From Oscillatoriophycideae cyanobacterium NC_groundwater_1537_Pr4_S-0.65um_50_18 (GTDB taxonomy: Bacteria > Cyanobacteriota > Cyanobacteriia > Elainellales > Elainellaceae): a stretch of 64,000 nucleotides of DNA. The notes under the pieces are model-generated. The model was given only the letters and a program-made list of their open reading frames with translations, made no database searches and was not told the origin of the DNA. Location of the stretch: assembly GCA_016208305.1 (NCBI GenBank), contig JACQYI010000058.1, positions 62,001 through 126,000 on the forward strand. Reading direction: 5' to 3'. A program made the translations under genes and the position numbers. Positions 13,841-19,571 of the stretch are shown piece after piece. How positions within the stretch are numbered: position 1 is the stretch's first letter; each line of letters starts with the position of its first letter.

Positions 13841-13935
13841 ATAGGTTAGGTTGAGCAGAGCGAAACCTAACATTCACAAGGTTAGGCGTTGGGTTACCCT
13901 GCGGGAAGCAAGCTACGTGCCTCAACCCAACTTAC
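13841..13935. repeat. Palindromic mobile-element-like repeat, copy A (95 bp)
   Basis: The ends ATAGGTTAGGTTGAG (13841-13855) and CTCAACCCAACTTAC (13921-13935) are inverted repeats with a few mismatches. The interior carries a second inverted pair (CGAAACCTAACA / TGTTGGGTT). It matches copy B at 14731-14806 through most of its length but has an extra block of about 20 bp (ACCCTGCGGGAAGCAAGC). Similar GTAGGTTGGGTTGAG palindromes are widespread in cyanobacterial genomes. Confidence 0.8.
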
Positions 13936-13971
13936 GGGCTAGCCGCTCGAAAACACCTCACCGATCGCCCC

Positions 13972-14000
13972 TTGACGATCGCCCGCTTTTCCTCTATGCT
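13972..14000 (+). promoter_or_regulatory. Sigma70-type promoter TTGACG-N17-TATGCT
   Basis: The -35 hexamer TTGACG (13972-13977) and -10 hexamer TATGCT (13995-14000) are 17 bases apart. The predicted start is about 14007, giving a leader of about 225 nt before the small gene at 14233. Confidence 0.6.
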
Positions 14001-14006
14001 CACACG

Positions 14007-14220
14007 TTATAGCTATTTGCAACTCGCCCTGCGGTAGCTGAATCCCCAAAAATCTAGCGCTACTCAAAGCTGCTGGTCACAGCGATGAGTAGCTAACCCC
14101 CAAACTGCGGTGCGGCAGTCTGGTGGCTAATGAGGAATTTTAACACTCCTTATAGCCGCTCTGATGCTTCATGCTTTCGGGGCGGCTAGGTTTTTGGGTT
14201 TCCTTCCCGAAACCCAAACC
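14007..14220 (+). ncRNA. Structured leader RNA candidate, about 215 nt, four hairpins
   Basis: Between a good promoter and the Shine-Dalgarno of the next gene lie successive hairpins. (1) GCTACTCA (14059-14066) pairs with TGAGTAGC (14086-14093), with an inner GCTG/CAGC. (2) AGCTAACCCCCAAACTGC is followed by GCAGTCTGGTGGCT (about 14091-14133), pairing imperfectly. (3) GCCGC pairs with GGCGGC (about 14155-14186). (4) GGTTTTTGGGTTTC (14189-14202) pairs with GAAACCCAAACC (14209-14220). The last ends one base before AGGAG. The spacing suggests control of translation initiation. It does not match the glutamine riboswitch or any other class I can recall. It could also be a free small RNA. Confidence 0.5.
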
Positions 14221-14232
14221 AGGAGAACTTTG

Positions 14233-14544
14233 ATGAATAATGCGTTTCAGTCGGATCATGCCGACCCCATTTCCCATAGCTCTAGTTTCATAGCGCCCGA
14301 TTTTGTTATCTTGCCCGAACCCGGCTTGCCCGATGTGCCTAAGGAAAAGGGCGATCGCGAACTTCTCTATGTGCTCGTCATCGGTTTCGAGGCGGGTGTG
14401 ATGGAAACGTTGTATGAGCTTCAGCGGCGCGGCTTTGCCAATGTCACCGACTGGAGCCGCAATTTGCCCCGTCCTGAAGAGTTCCCCCAACCGCGATCGG
14501 GTGAGGTGATGCGGATTTTGCAGCGGTATCGGCTGCGGGGGTAA
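14233..14544 (+). CDS. Small conserved-looking hypothetical protein behind a structured leader
   Basis: 103 residues from the ATG at 14233, chosen because AGGAG (14221-14225) lies 7 bases upstream; a longer in-frame start at 14164 would lie inside the hairpin leader. The N-terminus is Ser/His-rich and looks disordered. The rest (ELLYVLVIGFEAGVMETLYE, then LQRRGFANVTDWSR, then GEVMRILQRY) predicts a strand followed by helices. I remember similar short proteins in other cyanobacteria without a function. There are no membrane helices and no cysteines. An inverted repeat at 14558-14586 probably terminates the transcript. Confidence 0.65.
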   Translation: MNNAFQSDHADPISHSSSFIAPDFVILPEPGLPDVPKEKGDRELLYVLVIGFEAGVMETLYELQRRGFANVTDWSRNLPRPEEFPQPRSGEVMRILQRYRLRG

Positions 14545-14557
14545 GCAGGGGCACTGG

Positions 14558-14586
14558 ACCTCGGAGGTTTTCAAAACCTCTGAGGT
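14558..14586. terminator. 14-bp inverted repeat downstream of the small gene
   Basis: Arms 14558-14571 and 14573-14586 (ACCTCGGAGGTTTT / AAAACCTCTGAGGT) pair with one mismatch around a single base. It lies between the small gene stop and the transposase remnant, so it may instead be the subterminal palindrome of that IS200-like element. Confidence 0.6.
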
Positions 14587-14614
14587 TCTTGGGTGACACA
14601 TTCTCAATACTGCT

Positions 14615-15064
14615 ATGGCTCATCAACCTCGTGATCTGAAACCTGAATTCTGCTATCACATTACCGTTCGTTGTAATAATCGAGAATTTCGTTTAACTCG
14701 ATCGGAGTGTCGGGAAGTTGAGCAGATCGCGTAGGTTGGGTTGAGCAGAGCGAAACCCAACATTCACAGGCTTAGGTGTTGGGTTTCGTGCCTCAACCCA
14801 ACCTACGGGCTACTATGGCACTGTGCAGCAATTTACCGTAAGTTTTGCCAACGGTATCAACCCAAGCCGAAACCAGAAAAGCGAAATTACTGGGGCAGTC
14901 GATTGCTGGAGCAGATTAAAAAGAAGGGCAAACCGCGCAAGACCAGCCCCGGTCAAATGGATTTGTGGGAAGAGTGGGAAATTTCCTCAGAAATTCATGA
15001 GGTAGCCAAGAAATTTATTGCAGCGAATTGCTACAAATCCCCATCCGCAATGATCCCAGGTTAG
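14615..15064 (+). pseudogene. IS200-like / REP-associated tyrosine transposase remnant, core deleted
   Basis: The first 38 codons from the ATG at 14615 read as the N-terminus of a Y1-type transposase (MAHQPRDLKPEFCYHITVRC, then NNREFRLTRSECREVEQIA). A stop codon (TAG) then arises at the left edge of the palindromic repeat at 14731. After the repeat, the same frame continues as what I recognise as the C-terminus of this transposase (YRKFCQRYQPKPKPEKRNYW, GSRLLEQIKKKGKPRKTSPG, then EIHEVAKKFIAANC). The central part with the HUH motif and catalytic tyrosine is missing. So the element has lost its core and is dead. Attribution of both ends to one family is from memory of related proteins. Confidence 0.65.
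14731..14806. repeat. Palindromic mobile-element-like repeat, copy B (76 bp)
   Basis: Perfect 15-bp terminal inverted repeats, GTAGGTTGGGTTGAG (14731-14745) and its complement (14792-14806). A perfect inner 12-bp pair, CGAAACCCAACA (14751-14762) / TGTTGGGTTTCG (14777-14788), is nested inside. It interrupts the transposase remnant and shares sequence with copy A 0.9 kb upstream. Confidence 0.85.
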
Positions 15065-15182: not shown

Positions 15183-16253
15183 TTACAAGTCTGTGCGCGA
15201 GAGAAGAGATAACGACGACCACAACCCCACCCACTCCCTCATCACGACCCAACCCACTAATCCCAACCTACTCTTTTGAAGCCGAGGTGTCCAGATAGGG
15301 AGGTGACCCTTCTTTGCCGAGGTGTCAAAAGTTAAATCGCTGTAATAGATCCATTCTCCTTTTACGCGCCAGCCCACTCGATCGCCAAACTCATTCCAGA
15401 TCTTATCTCCTGAATACTTCCCATCTGGCTTGCCGCCACAGTCCAGATAAATTTTCTTTTGCACACTGAAACCAAACTGACCCTGGCTATACTTTACCCA
15501 GAGCTGATCGATTGTGCGGAGATCAGTACAAGGAAACTGCTCAATATCTTCGACTCGCAGCCAGCCTTCTTCCTGCCGCCCCATGACTTCGCACATTTTT
15601 TTAGCAGTTTCTTGATCTGCCTCTTTCCATTTTCCTGCCTTCAACAGATCTCGCAAGGGCTTGTAGTTGGTGTTGCGATCGGATCTCAGGTCATCAGTAT
15701 CGATCGATTGTCTCTGTTGATTAGCTAATTCTTGCTGTTTCCTCTCTGCTTCTGCGGCTTGCTGTTGTCTTAATTGTTCAGCTTGTTGGGTCTTTTGAGT
15801 GCGTCCTTTTGTAATCTCTGTTGCCGCAAGATAGACACCATCTACTACATCTGTATAGGCATCGTCGATATGTGTCCAGCTTACGATCGGCTTTGCTTTT
15901 TCGGGATATGCCTGAATTGCCGCCAAGGGCGTATATTTCCAACCACACGATCGCAAAATCACAGGCATCACCGTAGCTTCGCCTGCCTCGTGTCGCCGCA
16001 GTGCCTCCGGGATCTCTACTTGGTTGCAGTAGTCGGTATTGAGAAAGTCGGCGCTGATCAACAGCAAAATGATGTCTGCCGCATTCAGACGAGCTTTGAT
16101 CTCCTCATCCCAGCGAGTGCCCGGTAAGATCTGGCGATCGTGCCAACTGATGATGCCCTTTGTTTCCAGCGGACGCAGGTGAGCGAGTAACCCATCGCGC
16201 AACTCTTTGTCTTGCTTTGAGTAAGAGATAAAGACTTCAATGGTGTCCGACAT
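15183..16253 (-). CDS. TIR-GUN4 fusion protein
   Basis: 356 residues. A TIR domain spans about 4-145 (VFISYSKQDKELRDGLLAHL; ADIILLLISADFLNTDYCNQ), with a Glu (Glu80) where NADase-active TIR domains have the catalytic residue. A charged, Gln-rich coiled region lies at about 155-190. A GUN4 domain follows at about 195-325 (LRDLLKAGKWKEADQETAKK; FPCTDLRTIDQLWVKYSQ; FGFSVQKKIY). Classical GUN4 binds protoporphyrin IX/Mg-protoporphyrin and activates Mg chelatase; TIR-fused forms are probably sensors. The last 30 residues (GLVGWVVMREWVGLWSSL) are off-family. NAD cleavage triggered through GUN4 is an inference. It lies beside a MazEF-type pair and another TIR gene. Confidence 0.88.
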   Translation of the reverse strand: MSDTIEVFISYSKQDKELRDGLLAHLRPLETKGIISWHDRQILPGTRWDEEIKARLNAADIILLLISADFLNTDYCNQVEIPEALRRHEAGEATVMPVILRSCGWKYTPLAAIQAYPEKAKPIVSWTHIDDAYTDVVDGVYLAATEITKGRTQKTQQAEQLRQQQAAEAERKQQELANQQRQSIDTDDLRSDRNTNYKPLRDLLKAGKWKEADQETAKKMCEVMGRQEEGWLRVEDIEQFPCTDLRTIDQLWVKYSQGQFGFSVQKKIYLDCGGKPDGKYSGDKIWNEFGDRVGWRVKGEWIYYSDLTFDTSAKKGHLPIWTPRLQKSRLGLVGWVVMREWVGLWSSLSLLSRTDL

Positions 16254-16345: not shown

Positions 16346-16693
16346 TTACAGCCCCAAGCAATAACGGACAGCATTTTCAACCTCAAGCATTTTCTCGTTT
16401 GAGAGTTGACCTGCTGACTCTTCAGGAAATCGCTTTGCATCCAGCGATCGTACCTGGAACCCCAAAAAGACCGTTTCAAGCGGTAAACCACTCTCCTCTG
16501 GTAACACCCGGACATTCATGGGGTAATCTTTCAAGATATTACTGCCCTTTGTTCCCACTACAACCGTAACAACGAGGGGTAAACGGTTGATAGCATTGAT
16601 GGAGAGTACAAGTACAGGTCGTTGTCCAGCTTGCTCTCTGCCTTGAACTGGATTCAAATTAACAAAGTAAATCTCAGACCGTCGAATGCTCAT
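16346..16693 (-). CDS. MazF/PemK-type toxin
   Basis: 115 residues, normal length. Family features are RSEIYFVNLNPVQGREQAGQ, then RPVLVLSINAINR, the strand TVVVGTKGS, then GLPLETVFLGFQVRSLDAKR. MazF toxins are sequence-specific mRNA endoribonucleases. The ATG overlaps the stop of the upstream antitoxin gene by 4 bases (ATGA), showing translational coupling. The C-terminus (EKMLEVENAVRYCLGL) is intact, so the toxin looks functional. Confidence 0.9.
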   Translation of the reverse strand: MSIRRSEIYFVNLNPVQGREQAGQRPVLVLSINAINRLPLVVTVVVGTKGSNILKDYPMNVRVLPEESGLPLETVFLGFQVRSLDAKRFPEESAGQLSNEKMLEVENAVRYCLGL

Positions 16694-16905
16694 GCACTTT
16701 GCAATCCGTCCAGCTCCGTCAAGGTAAACTCCTGATTAATCGCTGTAATTTCAGCCTGTATTTCTGGATCGTTTGCCATCTCTAATAAGTCAGCTTCATC
16801 CGGTTCCCTAAGCTGACGGGCAATCCGTTCCAGAAGCCAGAGTTTTTCCCTTGCAGATAAATCAGCGATCGCTCGTTCGATCTTTAACAGATTCTGGGAA
16901 GCCAT
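16690..16905 (-). CDS. Antitoxin partner of the MazF-type toxin
   Basis: 71 residues from the ATG at 16905 (MASQNLLKIERAIADLSARE). The frame is open further upstream, but the extra residues do not look like protein of this family. It is a small acidic helical protein of the cyanobacterial type often found before MazF (KLWLLERIARQLREPDEADL), not a classical AbrB-fold MazE. Its C-terminus overlaps the toxin start. The region upstream (16906-17063) holds two dyads, TCGT-A-ACGA near 16931-16940 and AGGGT-N6-ACCCT at 16954-16969, that may be its own operators. Confidence 0.75.
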   Translation of the reverse strand: MASQNLLKIERAIADLSAREKLWLLERIARQLREPDEADLLEMANDPEIQAEITAINQEFTLTELDGLQSA

Positions 16906-16953
16906 TGCCGCAACATTAGATTTGAGGATATGTCGTAACGATAACATGGTGAG

Positions 16954-16969
16954 AGGGTAGCAAAACCCT
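16954..16969. promoter_or_regulatory. Dyad AGGGT-N6-ACCCT upstream of the antitoxin gene
   Basis: A 5-bp inverted repeat about 50 bases before the antitoxin start. Toxin-antitoxin operons are usually autorepressed at such sites. The arms are short, so this is tentative. Confidence 0.3.
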
Positions 16970-17063
16970 GAAATTATGTCTTGCGATCGCCACCTTTCAA
17001 TCTCAGAACCCGATCGCCCATCCATTAACATAGAACTAGATCCAGGGATAGGAAAATAGACAA

Positions 17064-17705
17064 ATGGTGCAAACGATCGCAGCAGAAAAAGTAACGCTCT
17101 ATGATTTGGAGCAGCGATTTCAGTTGCGGCAAATTGAAGACCCTTCATTCTTCCCAGAGTGGCAAGCAGACTTGCCTGCGTTGACGGAAACAGAACAGCA
17201 AAGACTGTTGCGCGTGCAGGCGATTGTCGCAAATCTGGAACGGCGATCGGTGTTAGAAAATACCGTTAAATTGGCGGTCGTTGCTCCCCTACTGGATTTA
17301 TCAGGGCTGTTCTTGCCCCCGTTCTACGTCAGCACAGAAGACTCTGTAGAGATTGAAGCTGCTGATGGAAACGTGATAGTGCGGGGTCGCATTGATGTTT
17401 TGGTACTACAGGATCAGCTCTGGGTGCTGGTCATTGAGTCTAAACGAGCTGAGTTTTCACCTAAAGTGGGCATTCCTCAAATCTTGTCTTACATGCTGGC
17501 TGCACCCAATGGAAACTTTCCTCGCTATGGGTTAGTCACCAATGGTACAGATTTTGTCTTCTTGAAGTTAATGATTCGAGAGGTTCCCCACTATGGGCGA
17601 TCGCGGCAATTTATCTTAGGGCAAGACCATGATCTAGAGCGCGTCTTGCAAATCCTCAAGCATCTGGCGGCCATGATTGAGTCAACAGGACAGCAGCAAG
17701 GGTAG
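17064..17705 (+). CDS. Stand-alone type I restriction HsdR N-terminal-like (HSDR_N) nuclease protein
   Basis: 213 residues. The middle part has the PD-(D/E)xK arrangement of the HsdR_N nuclease fold: RGRIDVLVLQDQLWVLVIES followed by KRAEFS, with the Asp of RIDVLV and the ESK triad at about residues 110-130. The helix QILSYMLAAPNG and the sheet YGLVTNGTDFVFLKL follow. Helicase and specificity subunits are absent, so it is not a complete type I system; such single-domain proteins are common in cyanobacteria and their role is unknown. It is transcribed divergently from the toxin-antitoxin pair. Confidence 0.8.
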   Translation: MVQTIAAEKVTLYDLEQRFQLRQIEDPSFFPEWQADLPALTETEQQRLLRVQAIVANLERRSVLENTVKLAVVAPLLDLSGLFLPPFYVSTEDSVEIEAADGNVIVRGRIDVLVLQDQLWVLVIESKRAEFSPKVGIPQILSYMLAAPNGNFPRYGLVTNGTDFVFLKLMIREVPHYGRSRQFILGQDHDLERVLQILKHLAAMIESTGQQQG

Positions 17706-17760: not shown

Positions 17761-19371
17761 CTAGGCCAAGAGTTTAAAGATGTGTTTCTGAAATTCCTCC
17801 AAGCTTCCCCAAGCTTTTCGGAACGTAGAGAAATTAGGGCTGTTGAAGGAGTGAGTATTGCCATCAGCATAGTTAGGACTGAATCCTAAAATATCCTTTT
17901 GGTGAGGAAGCTGATTCCAATCTTGTTCTGCAAGCCATACAGCTCTCACCCAACGAAAAAATCCTGAATCTGTTTTGCGAACTTGATCATCCAGAAATTC
18001 GACCACATGCGTAACTTTTGCGCGTTGATGCAAAATCATTAGATCTCCGGTTTTAGGGAGATCAACGCCATGACTGGTTGCCCGCCACATTAACTCGAAA
18101 GCTCTACTTTCTGGTCTCTCCATGCGATCGAGCGAATAAGCCCATTGCATTAAATTTGGATCTTTAATATTTTTGATGAAACGAAGTTTAGCGGGGTGGC
18201 ATTCTCGTAACTCCTTTGGGAGAATTGGTGATGGATCTATTTCTAAGATCTCTCCAGCTTCAGTTTGAGCGATGCCCGAAGTTTCAATTTGAGTAAGATC
18301 TAGGGAGACTGGTGGAGGTTCGATCGATGGTTTTTGAGTATCCCAAAACACTGATTTAGAAGGAGGAGGCAGATCTCCTGGTGCGACTTCTGGCACCGCA
18401 ACTATGGCTTTACCTCTGAGGCGGTAGACAAGGGTTTTCAAACTTTCTTCGTTATCAAGAATATATCTATCGTGAGAATTGAGTATGAGAGGAATATGAG
18501 CTACGTCCTGCTGAGAAAACACAACAGGGATGAATTTGGTATCTCTTGATAGATTGTTGTAAAGAGACTGCCTAATAATTGTTCCTTCCCACGTAGCTCC
18601 TCGCCCTTGCCCAGATTCCTCATCTCCCCTAAATCGCCGCCTATAGGTTTCAGTACAAACGATGAGCACAAAATCAGCCCATTCAATCCGTTTTTCCATC
18701 CATAAATCCCACCCATCTCTTGGGGTATATGGAGGCTTGGCTCTAACGTATTGATCTATATCTGTTTCAATCCCCCAAGGTTTTCGTAGGGTATTCGCCA
18801 CCGCCAAAACGTTGTTTTTGTGTTCTTCTGAGTCCCAGCTATAGCTGATGAAGACTTTTGTTGGCTCTTTGGCTTCCTCCGACACCTGTTTCTCCGGCAA
18901 AATGTGAATCTGGAGTGGTGTTGTGACGGGTGGTTTACCTAGTGCAGTCAATAGCTGCGTCCAGGCGAAGATCGGATCGTCTGGGTCAACAAAATTGAGA
19001 TAAGTCAAATAGCCAATGTCAGGCGGAAGCTCACAGGGTTCTTTGAGCAAAGGAATCAGCCGCAGCTCTTTATTTAGCGGATCGGGAGTCCAAAGCAGAT
19101 AGCGCTCAAACTCTGTCCATTTACTTTTCAGATAATTTGGCGTGAGCACCATCAGCGTTTTGCGGCTCGTGGTAGCAGCCCGTTTCAGCTCTGAAATAGC
19201 AGGCGCTCCTATCCGAAAATCTCGATAGTCAATGCAGCACTTCAACCCGGCATCTTCCAATCGCCGCAACAGTTCTCTCCGCACCCACTGATCTTGAGTG
19301 CTGTAAGAGATAAACACATCGTATTCATACGAATTCGAGTCAGAAGGCAGTTGCTCAGGGGAATGACTCAT
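17761..19371 (-). CDS. TIR-SEFIR protein with an unassigned C-terminal domain
   Basis: 536 residues from the ATG at 19371; an in-frame upstream start at 19464 has no domain support. A TIR domain spans about 17-150 (YDVFISYSTQDQWVRRELLR) with a catalytic-type Glu (Glu89, WTEFERYLLW). A SEFIR-like domain is at about 170-330 (KVFISYSWDSEEHKNNVLAV; WMEKRIEWADFVLIVC; RRRFRGDEESGQGRGATWEG). A Pro/Glu-rich linker follows, then a C-terminal module at about 400-536 (LMILHQRAKVTHVVEFLDD; FFRWVRAVWL; PHQKDILGFSPNY) that I cannot name. Its GD-LMILHQRAKVTHVVE start recalls EVE/PUA-like folds. Paired TIR/SEFIR domains suggest an immune signalling or cell-death protein. Confidence 0.8.
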   Translation of the reverse strand: MSHSPEQLPSDSNSYEYDVFISYSTQDQWVRRELLRRLEDAGLKCCIDYRDFRIGAPAISELKRAATTSRKTLMVLTPNYLKSKWTEFERYLLWTPDPLNKELRLIPLLKEPCELPPDIGYLTYLNFVDPDDPIFAWTQLLTALGKPPVTTPLQIHILPEKQVSEEAKEPTKVFISYSWDSEEHKNNVLAVANTLRKPWGIETDIDQYVRAKPPYTPRDGWDLWMEKRIEWADFVLIVCTETYRRRFRGDEESGQGRGATWEGTIIRQSLYNNLSRDTKFIPVVFSQQDVAHIPLILNSHDRYILDNEESLKTLVYRLRGKAIVAVPEVAPGDLPPPSKSVFWDTQKPSIEPPPVSLDLTQIETSGIAQTEAGEILEIDPSPILPKELRECHPAKLRFIKNIKDPNLMQWAYSLDRMERPESRAFELMWRATSHGVDLPKTGDLMILHQRAKVTHVVEFLDDQVRKTDSGFFRWVRAVWLAEQDWNQLPHQKDILGFSPNYADGNTHSFNSPNFSTFRKAWGSLEEFQKHIFKLLA

Positions 19372-19571
19372 GGGGCAATCGGCTTCAAAAATTTGTTCAA
19401 TGCTTCGATCGATTATAAGCCCCTTCTCCAAACCAACGGAAACACCTGCGATCGCCACCCACAACGGTAAAATTTAGAACGATTGCCCTCTAATTCTTAC
19501 CCCTTCATCTGCCATCGCCATCCTCCAACTTTAGTGCTAAGAACTTTGAGGCGCGATCGCCCCCACCAACC

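Follow-up and report, generated by a model that had tools for sequence, protein, structure and literature searches.

What does a long, structured leader RNA do in front of a small gene of no recognizable family? The question is raised by a 64-kb stretch of contig JACQYI010000058.1 (hereafter, the window) within the 6.94-Mb assembly of Oscillatoriophycideae cyanobacterium NC_groundwater_1537_Pr4_S-0.65um_50_18 (genome G000), in which a promoter (13972-14000), a leader (about 14007-14232) and a gene for a 103-residue protein (14233-14544, with its ATG at 14233) follow one another on the forward strand. A reading made from the letters alone (the sequence-only reading) had described a structured leader with its own promoter and an AGGAG ribosome site behind the last hairpin, and this layout was confirmed. 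Together, the leader and the small gene are one of many copies of a unit dispersed through some cyanobacterial genomes, consisting of the promoter, a leader of about 200 nucleotides (nt) and a gene for an orphan protein of 65-119 residues. We consider it probable, at roughly 65%, that the leader is a transcription attenuator controlled by an antisense RNA, of the kind known from pT181 and pIP501, with one private sense/antisense pair per copy.

Is the leader a genuine RNA structure? Its promoter, TTGACG-N17-TATGCT, recognized in the sequence-only reading, is indeed the sole promoter-like site in 13900-14620 (1 seen, 0.3 expected), and TTGAy-N15-19-TAnnnT precedes 97 of the 147 parsed copies of the unit, compared with 1.9% in shuffled sequences. 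The segment 14007-14260 folds at -94 kcal/mol, whereas the shuffled mean is -71.4 kcal/mol (z -4.81; none of 200 shuffles equalled it). The four consecutive hairpins reported earlier were recovered where they had been placed, but the enclosing helix P1 and hairpin P4 had been missed. P1 is a long-range helix of 13 base pairs (bp) between 14045-14057 and 14186-14198; within it lie P2 (14059-14093), P3 (about 14100-14123), P4 (14125-14157), which sits between P3 and P5, and P5, the long form of which spans about 14153-14188, whereas a 5' hairpin, P0 (14010-14040), precedes it. The hairpin next to the ribosome site (Shine-Dalgarno sequence, 14221-14225), P6 (14189-14220), overlaps the 3' strand of P1, and the two are therefore mutually exclusive; the minimum free energy fold favours P1.

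The helices were evaluated with a covariance model, R1, built from an alignment of our own (32 sequences, 156 positions, 48 pairs). The stems covary and persist across genera, the outcome that the sequence-only reading had proposed to look for: double-sided changes occur in 22 of the 48 pairs, including 11 of 12 in the main helix of P2 and 5 of 7 in P3, and the covariation score is 0.288, compared with 0.162 for shuffled alignments, with none of 500 shuffles reaching it, although kinship among the sequences can lift such scores over shuffles even without structure. When partner columns were slid by 1-3 positions, paired cells fell from 84.7% to 33-50%. A search of both strands of the window against Rfam, plasmid counter-transcribed RNA families included, gave nothing at gathering score, which bears out the earlier claim that the leader matches no known RNA; with the threshold relaxed to E 10 on 13950-14560, the sole match was sar, below gathering (14.7 bits, E 5.9).

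What distinguishes the copies from one another is the sequence of two hairpin tips, those of P2 (14073-14079 in the window) and P3 (14108-14115). Over eight paralogue sets of our choosing, the per-site difference is 0.38-0.66 in the P2 tip and 0.21-0.65 in the P3 tip, and in every set the P2 tip diverges more than third codon positions do. For the two closest, G000 and G027a, the P2 tip differs at 0.66 and 0.57, respectively, compared with 0.027 and 0.017 in the rest of the core, 0.18 and 0.12 at third codon positions and 0 in the P4 loop. The rest of the core is itself divergent in the G022 set (0.236), some copies of which have P5 inserts. Such an insert in the P5 loop, roughly 80-100 nt long, was seen in loci L043, L045 and L062 (from G022, G020 and G021), with the remaining RNA intact.

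Putative contacts through the tips were gauged by computed energies and motifs. Duplexes of cognate tips have energies of -13.4 kcal/mol for both P2 and P3, whereas non-cognate duplexes have -3.8 (P2) and -3.3 kcal/mol (P3), and non-cognate combinations come within 0.5 kcal/mol of the cognate one in just 9 of 1565 cases for P2 and 44 of 1582 for P3. Among 791 within-genome pairs (96 parsed copies, six genomes), 3 share the P2 tip and 20 the P3 tip. YUNR, a U-turn motif described in passages of PMC7430163 as a proposed aid to loop contacts, occurs on either strand in 106 of 147 P2 tips and 76 of 147 P3 tips, compared with 51 in shuffled tips in both cases. The loop diversity could instead come from a functionless mutational hotspot at the hairpin tips. 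In two cases (L138/L139 and L153/L167), P2 tips from one genome are exact reverse complements, as inversion of a hairpin tip would give; however, P4, within the same RNA, has a constant tip (0-0.10 difference), and this, together with the YUNR enrichment, makes a mere hotspot very unlikely. By eye, two other roles for the loops were also discarded: kissing between P2 and P3 inside one copy, through UACC/GGUA, is possible in a few copies and impossible in others, and a role as anticodon mimics was dropped for want of a fixed frame.

Why is the P4 loop constant? The loop, AUUUUANCA, reads TGNTAAAAT on the opposite strand and is nearly invariant, presenting TAnnnT, often as TGnTAAAAT, to that strand. 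In a -10 box, positions 1, 2 and 6 are fixed and positions 3-5 are free. The same pattern is apparent in the opposite-strand hexamers of 152 copies, in which T-12 is conserved in 149, A-11 in 150 and T-7 in 148, whereas the hexamer itself varies: TAAAAT 72, TAAACT 26, TAAGAT 21, TATGAT 9, TACACT 5, TACAAT 4, TATCAT 4 and TATAAT 2, with 9 single or gapped. The extended form TGnTAnnnT is present in 90 of 147 copies, compared with 3.4% in shuffles. In the window, the putative extended -10 element, TGTTAAAAT, occupies 14137-14145 on the opposite strand. Downstream of it on that strand, the region from 14131 to 14048 forms, at -41.8 kcal/mol (z -7.06), two hairpins with a U5 end, the predicted shape of a candidate antisense RNA of about 84 nt, the U-tract of which corresponds to the A-run in the 5' strand of P1. 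Across the copies, an antisense hairpin of at most -10 kcal/mol within 8 nt of a U-tract is found in 112 of 151, compared with 67 when the middle of the core is shuffled.

The sense strand also carries a terminator-like element. The long form of P5 and the U-tract at 14191-14195 make up a putative intrinsic terminator (14153-14195), the base of which, like P6, is overlapped by the 3' strand of P1; by the same definition as above, a sense hairpin precedes a U-tract in 108 of 151 copies, compared with 78 after shuffling of the middle of the core. Its 5' side can pair instead with GGCUAA, the 5' strand of P4 (14125-14130), so that, by computed folds, the leader contains a mutually exclusive antiterminator and terminator. 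In the free leader of the window, GGCUA and UAGCC are paired (0.94, 0.93 and 0.47 for the final three pairs), and the base of the terminator is unpaired (0.00-0.03); blocking 14048-14130 shuts that base (0.88-1.00) and abolishes P4. Over 151 copies, mean pairing of the terminator base goes from 0.23 free to 0.72 blocked, with a rise of more than 0.2 in 112 and a fall in 1. The effect is partly trivial and partly not, since shuffled controls rise too, but less: among the first 100 copies, pairing changed from 0.22 to 0.70 in the real sequences (69 rise, 1 falls) and from 0.23 to 0.37 in the shuffled ones (27 rise, 2 fall).

Taken together, the hypervariable tips, the -10 box on the opposite strand and the terminator-like elements on both strands point to an antisense RNA and to attenuation. 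For the same reasons, a translational riboswitch or thermosensor, the leading idea of the sequence-only reading, no longer holds that place, although the leader does appear to be cis-regulatory and does covary. The broader alternative is a new riboswitch or a protein-autoregulated leader, in which P1-P5 would be an aptamer that binds a metabolite or the small protein, and the competition of P1 with P6 or P5 would be the expression platform. The covarying multibranch fold, the overlap of P1 with both P6 and the terminator, and the pairing of leader and protein in 143 of 151 copies are all in its favour. We nevertheless consider it quite unlikely, given that the tips are hypervariable in otherwise constant copies, that the most constant loop reproduces the free and fixed positions of an opposite-strand -10 box, and that relatives of the protein at eight plasmid loci lack the leader.

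Under antisense attenuation, transcription from 13972-14000 would yield a leader that, alone, folds into P1-P4, keeping UAGCC (14153-14157) and CUA (14186-14188) from the terminator, so that the gene would be read and be ON by default. The antisense RNA would begin at about 14131, from the extended -10 element in the P4 loop, and end behind the complement of P2 at about 14048; it would kiss the leader at the loops of P2 and/or P3 and cover GGCUAA, upon which the P5 terminator would form and the gene would be OFF. Because both RNAs share the same DNA, a loop mutation alters both partners together, and copies would thereby drift into mutually blind pairs, with selection against cross-silencing presumably driving the diversity of the loops. 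Such a mechanism would account jointly for the variable tips on constant stems, for the constant P4 loop and for both U-tracts. UUUCCU opposite the Shine-Dalgarno sequence in P6 may add a translational layer. It is possible, and we suggest it tentatively, that a newly arisen copy stays silenced by its parent's antisense RNA for as long as its own tips are unaltered, which would leave about 10-30 mutually blind pairs per genome.

Several observations weigh against antisense attenuation. With regard to structure, P1 shows little variation and little covariation, a weak test of this helix (double-sided changes in 1 of 13 pairs), and its CUAG pairs are disrupted in 5 of the 32 seed rows; the long form of P5 has double-sided changes in 3 of 11 pairs, which 254 of 500 shuffles equal; and one of five covariation measures, the number of pair types, is not above shuffles (58, compared with 59.5). 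On the opposite strand, TG is absent from 57 of 147 copies, no -35 box was detected (best match 2.46 of 6, compared with 2.72 in shuffles), and a consensus scan of the window yields neither a promoter nor a terminator. The antisense A/U-tract is lacking in 33 of 151 copies, and that of the window lies about 6 nt past the last stem, making a poor terminator. The sense U-tract is likewise absent from 26 of 151 copies, the one sense terminator-like site in the consensus scan of the window is at chance level (0.9 expected), and under other criteria terminator-like hairpins in the first 60 copies number 49 on the sense strand and 34 on the antisense strand. Finally, the P3 tip does not exceed third codon positions in two sets, G019 (0.21, compared with 0.33) and f10 (0.28 each), and the absence of any within-genome pair sharing both tips (0 of 791) is a description rather than a test of avoidance, because independence predicts about 0.1.

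How widespread is the unit? Among 36 genomes of the order, relatives of the protein were found in 28, leader DNA by blastn in 19 and the R1 RNA in 29. Under stricter filters, R1 matched 14 of 386 genomes in a sample of the phylum, 12 of them with at least 50 bits, and one protein relative matched 18 of 388 genomes in a sample of the class at E 1e-8. A deeper search of six related genomes gave 135 matches down to 21 bits, of which 21 opposite-strand self-matches were removed by hand, leaving 114 places: 11 in G000, 11 in its genus-mate G005, 22 in G022, 20 in G027, 29 in G010 and 21 in G019. Where the core measures 140-200 nt (151 copies), an open reading frame (ORF) of at least 50 codons lies directly downstream in 143 copies; 137 of these ORFs carry a loose family motif, and none of that length was found behind the other 8 copies. 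Conversely, a relative of the protein elsewhere in the genome of the window (contig C47, 38911-39114) gave no leader match with R1. Among the papers listed by searches of an open-access library, none was recognized as describing this leader-gene family, which is no proof that none exists.

Six copies in the genome of the window can be aligned from roughly 30-40 bp before the -35 box through the stop codon, with mostly unrelated flanks; six G027 and four G019 copies are similar in extent, some having a longer upstream flank in common. In a search for empty sites, the flanks of the window copy mapped to scattered places in G005, whereas the downstream flanks of two other copies (L182 and L179) partly match G005 at places that, including 1.5 kb upstream of the match, lack the unit. 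The dispersal, the mostly unrelated flanks and the variation of the tips from copy to copy would also suit a mobile element using the P2 and P3 tips as guides to target DNA, like the bridge RNAs of IS110. We find this highly improbable: there is no recombinase within the unit or among the 25 commonest of the 167 families in 110 flanking ORFs, which are ordinary Pfam families, and the -10 signature of the opposite strand would be left unexplained. Similar palindromic repeats (GGTTGGGTTGAGCAGAGCGAAACCCAAC...) lie on both sides of the window copy, at 13843-13935 and 14731-14810. Further along, on the reverse strand, are two ORFs with VFISYS-type motifs (15183-16253 and 17761-19464), which we take to be TIR-domain-like, and an ORF whose motif resembles PemK/MazF toxins, immediately preceded by a possible antitoxin gene (16346-16693 and 16690-17232, respectively).

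What does the unit encode? The 103-residue protein belongs to no Pfam or NCBIfam family, and profile searches with its relatives, which have a variable N terminus and one nearly invariant Trp, gave no convincing family match. One relative, L071, is predicted to adopt a beta-alpha-beta structure (mean predicted local distance difference test 80.4, predicted template modelling score 0.60), for which no PDB or BFVD match was found at E <= 0.001. Plasmid searches with two protein relatives and the window stretch returned nothing, whereas a third relative matched 12 cyanobacterial plasmids; the leader was not found in the 8 of these loci examined, and the proposed RNA control thus applies to only some members of the protein family. 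In plasmid D of Trichormus variabilis (locus L256, 1619-1918), the leaderless relative is located between parG and a replication-related gene, and the relatives in L259 and L260 adjoin tyrosine recombinase genes. A phage search with one relative and a search of viral contigs with two yielded nothing.

A small orphan protein in many dispersed copies under putative antisense control also recalls type I toxin-antitoxin systems, in which the protein would be toxic, the antisense RNA the antitoxin and each copy, by its loops, an independent addiction module; this possibility could hold alongside the antisense control proposed above. A type I candidate from Microcystis, msoT1/msoA1, is described in parts of PMC12390103; its antisense RNA, encoded in cis and either 56 or 83 nt long, is proposed to adopt a two-hairpin fold. 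The two systems are alike in combining a small protein with such an RNA, putative in our case. However, the toxin of Microcystis has predicted membrane helices and its antisense RNA lies at the 3' end of the gene, whereas the modelled relative L071 is a beta-alpha-beta domain and no membrane peptide, a PADLOC search with 88 family members gave no match below E 0.05, and the antisense RNA would sit in the leader, acting before the messenger RNA exists. A toxin-antitoxin function is therefore unlikely in our estimation. Sections of PMC9978351 describe another cyanobacterial small gene, ssr7036 on pSYSA of Synechocystis 6803, under an abundant overlapping antisense RNA, asRNA1, for which kissing has been proposed; asRNA1 overlaps the coding sequence, in contrast to the leader here, and homology was rejected, as R1 matches nothing there and the proteins cannot be aligned.

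Antisense-controlled attenuators are, to our knowledge, known mainly from plasmids, and a U-turn loop reportedly matters for that of pIP501 (work of Heidrich and Brantl from 2003). In the parts of PMC3753616 on plasmid attenuators, the leader is ON by default and the antisense RNA forces the terminator hairpin, OFF, and this engineering paper remarks on an apparent dearth of natural examples. The unit is predicted from sequence to resemble pT181 and pIP501 in having a 5' leader that is ON by default and an opposite-strand antisense RNA that promotes termination, but theirs precede rep genes, whereas the downstream gene here belongs to an orphan small family, is no plasmid replication initiator and in each of six genomes recurs at 11-29 scattered places, and the unit reaches no Rfam family on either strand. 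According to passages of PMC10724649, compatibility in the RNAI of the IncI complex and IncK is set by letters of the top and interior loops rather than of the stems, and loop letters alone can separate IncK1 from IncK2; there, plasmid replication is controlled, whereas here many copies share one genome. With constant stems, a constant switch and copy-specific loops, the unit offers a natural experiment in how RNAs recognize one another, could supply orthogonal regulators for use in cyanobacteria, allows one to ask whether chromosomal gene families are shaped by incompatibility of the plasmid kind, and opens a way into an unnamed protein family that has relatives on plasmids of cyanobacteria. 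If parental silencing of new copies proves true, this chromosomal incompatibility system would be a natural orthogonal RNA code exceeding the engineered 7 x 7 set described in part of PMC3753616.
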